From Paenibacillus sp. FSL R7-0273 (GTDB lineage Bacteria; Bacillota; Bacilli; Paenibacillales; Paenibacillaceae), in contig NZ_CP009283.1 in NCBI RefSeq assembly GCF_000758625.1, positions 3,421,501 to 3,485,500 of the forward strand: a DNA stretch of 64,000 bases, written 5' to 3'. How positions within the stretch are numbered: position 1 is the stretch's first letter; each line of letters starts with the position of its first letter. The notes under the pieces are model-generated. The model had not been told where the DNA came from. It did no database searches and saw nothing but the letters and a program-made list of their open reading frames with translations. Position numbers and translations under genes: made by a program. Below are positions 4,771 through 57,736 of this stretch, in pieces.

Positions 4771-4784
4771 TTTAATCGAATAAG

Positions 4785-5085
4785 AAAAGCGATGAAGAGA
4801 AGAGTAGTTAAGCAAACGTTGCTCCCAGAGAGCTCCAGCCCGGTGAAATGGAGCAGCAATGTGCCTGACGAATAAAGTCTCTGAGCTGCATACGGAATTG
4901 GGTGTTTAGAGCGCCCAAGGATGGTATGACGGGAGCTCCCGTTACAGAGCTAGGGTATAAGCGTGATGGCCGTACCCGAAGAGGCGGTCCTGGCAACATG
5001 TCCGCGAACAGAGGTGGTACCACGGTGCTTATGACAGCTCCCGTCCTCAAGATGACAATCTTGAGGCGGGGGCTTTTTTGTTTTT
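4785..5085 (+). promoter_or_regulatory. T-box riboswitch, lysine specifier, upstream of lysK
   Basis: This is a T-box leader that senses uncharged tRNA. The T-box sequence AGGTGGTACCACGG lies at 5012-5025; its UGGU bulge (5015-5018) matches a tRNA acceptor end with discriminator A, as in tRNA-Lys. In Stem I, CAGAGA (4826-4831) pairs with TCTCTG (4878-4883), and the codon next to it is AAA (4874-4876), a lysine specifier, in the GAA-N-codon-purine arrangement typical of specifier loops. A long terminator stem with a T-run follows at 5037-5083; the T-box can compete with it as antiterminator. It should raise lysK expression when tRNA-Lys is uncharged. Confidence 0.93.
5037..5083 (+). terminator. 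Regulated terminator of the T-box leader
   Basis: A GC-rich stem (CTCCCGTCCTCAAGAT pairing with ATCTTGAGGCGGGGG, one bulge) is followed by CTTTTTTG. It lies directly between the T-box sequence and the lysK ribosome binding site, as expected for transcriptional T-box control. Confidence 0.9.
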
Positions 5086-56017: not shown

Positions 56018-56277
56018 TCTATATAGATTGAACTTAGGAATTTACGTTAAGGGAAAAGTGGCGGAGGGGAATTTTGGAACTGGAGGAGCGGTAGCGACCG
56101 CCTAAAAGCTTTTCGTAGAAAAGCTAGCTCCGGAAGCATAGGCAGTCTGCGGATTTCAACCGTTAAAAACGGTATAAATCAAGAAATCTGCAGAAGGGCA
56201 GCGGCTGGAAGTCCAAACATTCTCTGGAGTCACATGCAATTCCAAAACAGCAATATTATTAGTTTAATCTATATAGA
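56018..56277. repeat. Multi-hairpin element with terminal inverted repeats
   Basis: A 260-bp intergenic element is bounded by CTATATAGATTGAACT (56019-56034) and AGTTTAATCTATATAG (56261-56276), inverted repeats matching at 15 of 16 bases. An inner pair TTTTGGAA (56072-56079) / TTCCAAAA (56240-56247) is nested inside. Three stems lie between: GCGGT-AGCG-ACCGC (56088-56101), AGCTTTT-N5-AAAAGCT (56107-56125) and an 11-bp stem (56147-56157 with 56183-56193) enclosing CCGTT/AACGG. I recall similar intergenic elements in Paenibacillus genomes. Could be a MITE, a structured RNA or both. Confidence 0.8.
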
Positions 56278-56482
56278 TAAACAGCTTCACTCTGCATCAG
56301 CCAGAGTAACCAGCTAACCAGATAGGCTTTCAGCGGATAGCAGAGCTGGCCATTCCTTTTTTGGAGCAAATTTGAACAGTATGTAAGGTTACTGTACTAT
56401 TTATCTAAAAAAGCTGAGAATACTCCACCCTCGATAGGGTGGGGATGAATCTGCGGTATTTGGACCTAAACCCGAACACATG

Positions 56483-56491
56483 TGCTATAAT
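56483..56491 (+). promoter_or_regulatory. Extended -10 promoter of tnpB
   Basis: TGCTATAAT at 56483-56491 is a perfect extended -10 box about 35 bp upstream of the tnpB start; TTGGAC lies 20 nt further upstream. Confidence 0.6.
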
Positions 56492-56524
56492 ATGAATAAT
56501 ATTACCAAAAATGAGGTGTCGCAC

Positions 56525-57612
56525 ATGCTGATACATCAAGCCTATAAATACCGGATCTACCCCACACCGGAACAACAGCAACTCATAAGGCGTATGTTTG
56601 GCTGCTGCCGCTTTGTGTTCAATACCTTTTTGGACACTTGGAATCAAAGCTATGCGGAAACGGGAAAAGGCTTGTCCTATCACGCTTATGCGACAAAACT
56701 CCCTGCACTAAAAGCACAATACGACTGGCTGAAAGAAGTCGATAGCATCGCTTTGCAGTCGGCTGCCCGTCATGTGGCGGATAGCTTTGATCGCTTTTTC
56801 AAAAAGCAAAATCAAGTGCCACGCTTTAAGAGCCGGAAGCATCCGGTTCAAAGTTACACGACCAAATTCACGAACGGGAATATCGCCATTGAGGGGAGTC
56901 GCTTGAAGCTCCCAAAACTCGGCTGGATGCGTTTTGCAAACTCCCGGAAGCTGGGAGCCGGATATTGTCTGCTACCGTGCGTCAAAACGCCAGCGGGAAA
57001 TTTTTCGTTTCGCTTGGTTGCGAAGTTGAAAAGAACCCACTGCCGCAAGTGGACGCACATATCGGAATCGATCTGGGTTTGAAAGAGTATGCTGTAAGCT
57101 CGAATGGTGAACGGTATGCCAATCCCCGCTTTTACCGCCAATATGAGAAAAAGCTGGCGCTTTGGCAGCGGCGGATGGCTCGGCGTACTCCGGGCGGCTC
57201 CAACTGGAAGAAAGCGAAGCAGCATGTCGCTCGCATTCACGAACGTATTGCGAATAAACGAAATGATTTTCTCCACCAACTGACAACGAAACTGATCCGT
57301 GAAAACCAAACGATTAGTATCGAACATCTGCGTGTCGCGAATATGATTCAGAATCCCAAGCTTTCAAAATCCATCGCGGATGCGTCTTGGGGGGAGTGGG
57401 TACGGCAACTGACGTACAAAGCCCTTTGGTATGGACGAACCCTTCGGATCGCCGATACGTTCGAACCGACCAGTCAGCAGTGTCACGTGTGTGGCACGAT
57501 CCACCCGGAAGTAAAGAATCTTGCGGTTCGGGAATGGACGTGCAACGCTTGCGGTACGCTTCATGACCGTGATGAAAACGCCGCTCATAATATTGCACAA
57601 GTAGCGGTTTAA
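56525..57612 (+). pseudogene. tnpB: TnpB-like RNA-guided nuclease gene, frameshifted
   Basis: ATG 56525 opens a TnpB N-terminus (HQAYKYRIYPTPEQQQLIRRMFGCCRFVFN). The frame is lost near 56950-56960, between FANSRKL and SRILSATVRQNASGKFF, by loss of one base. The second frame continues to 57612 with the RuvC-like residues (GIDLGLKEYAV Asp, ISIEHLRV Glu, DRDENAA Asp) and the zinc ribbon (CHVCGTIHPEVKNLAVREWTCNACG). Total length would be about 362 residues, normal for TnpB. As read, the nuclease is inactive unless the shift is an error. Confidence 0.87.
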
Positions 57613-57736
57613 CCGCCACCTATCCAAATGATAGAACTGCGGGAACGCAGGAATCGCTTGCTAAATAAGAAGAGGTTACTCTTCTGTTCGCAAGAATCCG
57701 CCACTTCAAGCGCTAGCTAAGTGGAGGAGAATTCAA
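57601..57736 (+). ncRNA. Probable omegaRNA (TnpB guide RNA) region
   Basis: In TnpB systems the guide RNA overlaps the 3' end of tnpB and the right end. Here the region holds several stems: GCGG-N4-CCGC at the stop codon, CTGCG-GGAA-CGCAG (57637-57650), AGAAGAG-GTTA-CTCTTCT (57668-57685) closed by CTTGC/GCAAG, and the right-end hairpin (57695-57732). The guide would start just beyond about 57736. Confidence 0.6.

Follow-up and report, generated by a model that had tools for sequence, protein, structure and literature searches.

The 260-bp intergenic element of the window (the whole 64,000-nucleotide stretch of Paenibacillus sp. FSL R7-0273 DNA that was analysed) is best explained as a young IS630-type insertion carrying a conserved RNA core as cargo, with an inferred cis role of this RNA in the message, and we give this explanation a probability of about 0.8. 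The best reading is that of an RNA cargo that is found on several kinds of transposon and retained in messages, and the element seems to be a mobile RNA component and not junk. The carrier is of an already known kind, an IS630 MITE like RUP. What appears to be new is an order-wide covarying core that survives without ends and lies between different ends, and that was found neither in our literature search nor in the Rfam 15 scans.

The window element and its IS630-type carrier

A sequence-only reading of this DNA had pointed out terminal inverted repeats and strong internal stems, and had proposed for them either a non-autonomous mobile element or a multicopy structured RNA. The terminal repeats (56018-56034 and 56261-56277) are indeed present, being 17 nt long and 94% complementary, and so are the internal stems (56146-56157/56183-56194, 56152-56164/56168-56180, and 56107-56114/56118-56125). 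The 260 bases fold at -91.4 kcal/mol compared with -58.8 ± 4.5 kcal/mol for 200 dinucleotide-preserving shuffles (z = -7.3), none of which was as stable. The nested repeat TTTTGGAA/TTCCAAAA (56072-56079/56240-56247) described in the same reading exists in the window copy, but the conserved pairing of this arm is that of TTTGG (56073-56077) with CCAAA (56213-56217).

The four close relatives examined, which are those with the closest flanks (87-90% identity), all contain an empty site with a single TA (...TTCACCG-TA-GATAAA..., with small variants among them), whereas the filled site reads TTCACTC-TA-(TATAGATTGAAC ... GTTTAATCTATA)-TA-GATAAAC. One TA becoming two is the hallmark of IS630/mariner-type transposition. 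The window element is a recent insertion at a TA site, and the mobile element that had been proposed is borne out by the empty sites and the TA duplication. Since the inserted unit, 252 bp without the TA duplications, is bordered by TA both left and right, the terminal palindrome TCTATATAGA is partly target and partly element. Some 25 additional bases directly to the right of the insertion site are also absent in the four relatives.

The codon-based gene caller predicted no gene within the 252-bp element, which thus has no transposase of its own. Its end motif occurs at 33 places of the genome at two mismatches or fewer, compared with one place for the reversed control pattern. One of these places is the end of an IS630-family element in another locus (L051, 1559-2725), in which two adjoining ORFs correspond to the N-terminal and C-terminal portions of NCBIfam NF033545. 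The ends of that element, TATAAGTTGAACTAAAG and, on the other strand, TATAGATTGAACTAAAG, match those of the window element. Because of this match with an IS630-family element elsewhere in the genome, the window element is a non-autonomous IS630-type element (MITE), and the L051 element is, to judge from its sequence, a candidate helper for movement in trans. A 111-bp copy with an internal deletion and both ends kept is found in L052 (559-669).

The window element is flanked by a gene encoding a GNAT acetyltransferase (Pfam) and by a tnpB gene that starts about 240 bp downstream. This tnpB, which reads as two overlapping frames (56516-57082 and 56965-57612), belongs to an IS200/IS605-type element at about 56404-57731 that is absent in the four relatives, where it has its own empty site.

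Table 1. Coordinates (window numbering) of the element, its target duplication and the parts of its RNA core.
Feature	Position	Strand	Evidence
Left copy of the duplicated TA target	56020..56021	.	single TA in the empty sites of four relatives
Inserted non-autonomous IS630-type element, 252 bp	56022..56273	+	empty sites; 48 covariance-model matches in the genome
Left terminal repeat TATAGATTGAACTTA	56022..56036	+	inverted repeat; genome end-motif count; common to the IS630 element in L051
Conserved RNA core (R1 match, with optional hairpin module)	56056..56236	+	G000:C1:3477556-3477736, E 1.2e-29
Outer stem, 5' arm GTGGC, pairs with GTCAC 56229-56233	56058..56062	+	both-side changes in 4/4 pairs; 86.8% of cells paired
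P2, 5' arm, pairs with 56210-56217	56073..56082	+	helix 2 of the 36-row pairing test; other genera have different bases that still pair
GC-GNNA-GC mini-hairpin inside the three-way junction	56088..56095	+	mutual information, 263-copy count, 36-row pairing test
Junction helix CCGC, pairs with GCGG 56201-56204	56098..56101	+	mutual information, 263-copy count, 36-row pairing test
Optional hairpin module, 39-41 nt	56104..56144	+	BLAST copies and 263-copy count; presence varies among orthologous copies
P3 hairpin, long covarying stem with apical hairpin	56145..56194	+	stems, RNAalifold, mutual information, pair counts
Right terminal repeat, reverse complement TATAGATTAAACTAA	56259..56273	-	inverted repeat; genome end-motif count
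Right copy of the duplicated TA target	56274..56275	.	empty-site comparison

Copies, structure and spread of the RNA core

A BLAST search of the 7.29-Mb single-contig genome yielded 57 stretches matching the window element, and the aligned copies have in common a core of about 140 nt plus the optional module. A covariance model of the core (R1), built from 38 copies, gave 48 matches in this genome, 44 of them at E 2.2e-25 or better and the other four degenerate. The absence of an open frame, as remarked in the sequence-only reading, extends to all these copies: the codon-based caller placed no gene over any of them (0/48), and in the sister genome G022 only one of 30 copies overlaps a predicted gene. 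Tandem arrays of three cores, about 215 and 271 bp apart, are found at two loci (L071 and L077), at each of which G022 has a single core, and a locus of Paenibacillus sp. HW567 (L178) contains five cores about 199 bp apart.

The compensatory changes in the core exceed those in shuffled alignments, and this supports a structured RNA with a three-way junction, as predicted from the alignments. RNAalifold on 38 copies gave 41 pairs, 21 of them with compensatory change. When mutual information was scanned over 192 unique copies, with an effective number of about 138 sequences and statistics ignoring kinship, the top ranks were nested Watson-Crick pairs (67-109, 65-111, 66-110, 68-108, 63-113, and 36-129), with 43-122, 55-121, and 45-52 at lower ranks. 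In the resulting three-way junction, a helix continues across the small GC-GNNA-GC hairpin and is followed by P3. When a 45-pair structure was evaluated on 36 distinct rows, with statistics that again ignore kinship, 96.5% of the cells were paired compared with 90.6% after shuffling, both sides had changed in 24 pairs compared with 9.1, and there were 92 such cells compared with 19.2. None of 500 shuffles was as high, and sliding the partners lowered the pairing to 33-47%. Further copies and compensatory changes, whose absence the sequence-only reading had named as contrary to its proposal, were thus both found, which supports the view that its two alternatives, the mobile element and the structured RNA, hold together.

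A junction-anchored count that dispenses with a structure-fitted alignment covered 263 copies under 14 labels, one of which pools many Paenibacillus genomes, without correction for kinship. The junction pair was GC in 184 copies and AT in 79, with no exceptions, and the next helix pair was CG in 170, TA in 84, TG in 4, and another combination in 5. In the 210 copies lacking the module, P3 was paired in 95.8% of the cells compared with 81.5% after shuffling, with 433 doubly changed cells. At fixed offsets the P2 arm reached 67.1% compared with 52.0% over five pairs, two of which paired poorly, and bulges are suggested as the cause. Inspection by eye showed that in other genera P2 has been rewritten with its pairing retained and the junction bases unchanged. 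In 215 of 227 copies the better fold is that of the sense strand, and in P3 G-U exceeds A-C by 150 to 32, both pointing to an RNA rather than a DNA cruciform.

The module is present in 53 of the 263 copies counted, all of them from the genus. It is absent in five own copies (659651, 4672471, 5447956, 6763671, and 5352018) whose counterparts in G022 carry a 39-nt module, at the same position each time.

In a first sample, R1 matched in all 24 relatives of the same genus and in 4 of 15 genomes of other genera. Larger samples gave matches in 100 of 100 genus genomes, own genome included, in 232 of 296 genomes and 32 of 48 genera across the order, and in 5 of 348 genomes across the phylum, own genome included, all five from the family of the window; since these searches used stricter filters and scored few candidates per genome, the order and phylum counts are lower bounds. 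The highest number seen in one genome was 93 (G116, from another genus). A scan of named genomes with a 19-base pattern gave at least 80 loci, and among the 80 listed, 75 are titled Paenibacillus, four Bacillus sp. FJAT-27264, and one is a MAG labelled Acidobacteria; R1 matched in 74 of the 80. The MAG locus (L189) contains the pattern and has no R1 match at E 1e-5, which may reflect contamination or chance. One plasmid record contains the core, flanked by a gene for a dipeptide ABC ATPase and a DUF1177 gene that both point in its own direction, no phage record was found to contain it, and viral contigs gave three hits with one pattern and none with a second. Thus, the core is mainly chromosomal, and on the same counts a plasmid or phage home was rejected.

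No Rfam 15 family matched over the element, either at the gathering threshold (the window and 12 mostly distant loci) or in E-value mode (the element and four divergent own loci). The sole gathering match in the window is a T-box leader at 4783-5051. A literature search, mostly of titles and abstracts of open-licence PMC papers, did not find this repeat described, and PMC5670726 does not contain the word 'repeat'. The core RNA is apparently undescribed.

Orientation, persistence and carriers

The orientation of the core follows that of the neighbouring genes. We compared 201 copies (from the own genome, G022, and genus loci after removal of repeated cores) using genes from the codon-based caller: both neighbours point with the element in 131 and both against it in 14, while of the rest 20 have only the upstream and 16 only the downstream gene pointing with the element, and 20 have no neighbour in the stretch. 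The ratio of both-with to both-against is 58:5 for copies with no ends, 29:6 for those with one end, and 44:3 for those with both, the bias being already present in the two-ended class; 28 copies from other genera gave 10:1. Transcription and replication are not fully separable, because most copies are also co-oriented with replication (39/47 in the own genome and 32/34 in G022, assuming an origin at coordinate 1 and excluding one own copy near the presumed terminus). Copies are found within evident operons such as pheS-pheT and parE-parC. The own copy 4527045 (L018, 1012-1455) is 42 bp ahead of a gene for a FosB-like bacillithiol transferase.

The RNA core is older and more widespread than the window insertion, and it is still present where the ends have decayed. 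Sites shared with G022 comprise 2 of 12 own copies with both ends, 4 of 11 with one end, and 16 of 25 with no ends; this comparison covered 30 of the 34 R1 matches of G022 under a loose orthology criterion, and the total of 22 out of 48 includes copy 2206083, matched through its neighbour only, and the two triplet arrays. Two ends do not always denote youth, since the two-ended copy 4889429 is also present in G084 among the matches listed. Copy 1038434, among the matches listed, has flanks about 78% identical in three other genomes with the element between them. Identity over 17 orthologous pairs is 84.9% in the core, 69.0% in the 40 nt next to it, and 77.8% in the further flank, which is partly coding, although in four pairs the core is no better kept than both flanks (659651, 2207976, and 5352018) or, in one of the four, than the far flank (5500189). 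Between some orthologues a whole stem has been swapped with its pairing intact, or the module has been gained or lost, while the flanks are unchanged. Gene conversion between copies is a fair explanation of these differences, and it may raise core identity.

The core is also separable from its ends, because the same core is found between different kinds of ends. In G164, a genome from another family of the order, it lies between GAGGCCACTGAA and TTCAGTGGCCTC, and 14 of 18 sites show 8-bp duplications matching at 7 or 8 bases compared with none of 306 mispaired controls. In G168 and G142 it lies between GGCTCA and TGAGCC, ends that we take to resemble those of ISL3-family elements, and here 3 of 10 sites have 8-bp duplications matching at 7 or more bases compared with none of 90 controls (mean 5.6 of 8 compared with 3.7). 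Among the matches listed, ends of GGCTC type also occur in two genus copies (L160 at 3509 and L063 at 168), with no visible duplication. This occurrence of one core inside elements with unrelated ends and 8-bp duplications supports a cargo rather than the by-product of one transposase. There also seem to be short elements that have the G164 ends but no core, seen as paired end positions roughly 100 bp apart, and no autonomous partner for the non-TA end types was seen among the end positions.

The carrier with GAGGCCACTGAA ends (L312-L331, G164) is possibly a terminator-targeting transposon. When 17 of its sites were rebuilt, an intrinsic-terminator hairpin spanned 12 of them in the sense and 9 in the antisense direction, several being two-way, so that the sense excess is small; the controls gave 2 sense and 4 antisense of 34 points. 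For the TA type, 1 sense and 4 antisense of 55 sites lie across terminators (controls 4 and 8 of 108), and for the GGCTCA type none in either sense of 10 sites (controls 0/20).

Alternative explanations and known systems

The simplest rival is that of an ordinary IS630 MITE whose palindromic make-up gives the fold and whose recent spread gives the likeness of the copies, the RNA being functionless. The TA duplication and the matching IS630 element are what it predicts, two-ended copies are mostly private to each genome, and gene conversion could keep cores alike. Nevertheless, end-less cores persist at shared sites, junction bases are kept across families while stems are rewritten with pairing, the same core lies between other ends, and the sense strand folds better. 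These observations, with the orthologue comparison and the pair counts, disfavour a recent spread without RNA function, and we regard it as unlikely. The invariant junction with its variable stems and the sense orientation would also suit a ribozyme that cleaves itself, and thereby the message, where the element has inserted; no Rfam family matched, ribozymes included, and this explanation is rather improbable. Somewhat less credible still are multicopy genes for a trans-acting small RNA. The copies are many and conserved and the RNA folds alone, but a simple consensus scan of the window copy found no promoter-like site within and no sense terminator after it, and the position of the copies follows the neighbouring genes.

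The location of many copies 36-170 nt before a start codon, together with the compact and conserved junction, might suggest a leader, riboswitch-like or otherwise, that regulates the genes downstream. Against it, a scan of 20 genes downstream of own copies (16 with NCBIfam matches, four with general Pfam domains only) showed no common function in NCBIfam or Pfam, several copies lie inside operons, and others are found in terminators, convergent sites (20 of 201), and tandem arrays. A riboswitch was therefore rejected on the lack of a gene theme, and the chance of any such leader regulator is very small. A guide-type RNA of the neighbouring TnpB element, to which the proximity of tnpB lends itself, has the slightest chance of all: each of the two is an insertion of its own, with its own empty site in the four relatives, and none of the 20 scanned genes downstream of other own copies is tnpB, the scan of upstream genes having covered four.

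Returning to the cargo reading, the RNA may have been taken up by at least three unrelated end types (the TA-duplicating IS630 type, the GGCTCA type, and the GAGGCCACTGAA type), since a sense RNA would make insertion into transcribed DNA harmless or useful, and it may then have been kept as a resident mRNA element across the order. We consider this carrier-independent history possible, at somewhat below even odds. An intercistronic signal for processing or decay, or an insulating fold, is favoured by analogy with the ERIC, Correia, and bcr repeats, whose transcripts, according to PMC2229807, PMC10969869, and PMC3446304, can affect how mRNA is processed or decays, or which are transcribed as parts of operons. 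Under such a mechanism, the element would insert between co-transcribed genes and its sense RNA would fold inside the message, a host factor or RNase would recognise the invariant junction, and this recognition might set intercistronic processing or decay or shield the operon from the insertion, so that sense insertions would be tolerated or kept and antisense ones lost. Taken as one step, this sequence of events is more tentative than the history of uptake.

If this is an unlisted structured RNA, its tens of copies per genome across the order would represent a sizeable gap in RNA catalogues, and the core would affect operon annotation in Paenibacillus. Its presence on different carriers makes it possible to test an old question, namely whether the RNA of bacterial MITEs has a function or is no more than a fold. 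Experimental handles are offered by the orientation bias, by end-less copies in which the junction is intact, and by the terminator-inserted carrier.

The closest known carrier is RUP (repeat unit of pneumococcus), which is mobilised by IS630-Spn1 and is a small IS630-type MITE with TA ends (PMC2229807). RUP is described there without any other signature of structure or function, whereas here a covarying RNA core outlives the ends. In size class, IS630 type, and terminal TA, RUP and the window element are alike.

The enterobacterial ERIC repeat is about 127 bp long. By description it resembles the window element in its TA termini and intergenic location, and an orientation bias is seen for the core. 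ERIC is transcribed, and in Yersinia it acts on mRNA differently according to its orientation (PMC2229807 and PMC10969869); it is reported as an end-to-end stem-loop, whereas the window element has a three-way junction core. The bcr1-bcr18 repeats of the Bacillus cereus group are likewise MITE-like and occur in Bacilli, where they often lie in UTRs or operons and some have a conserved RNA structure (PMC3446304), but they are named for one species group, whereas the core was found, in the 348-genome phylum sample, only in the family of the window. The Correia or NEMIS elements of Neisseria are also MITEs with TA termini, and their RNA is cut by RNase III (PMC2229807 and PMC10969869). The cut site lies in their terminal repeats, whereas the conserved part of the window element is its interior.
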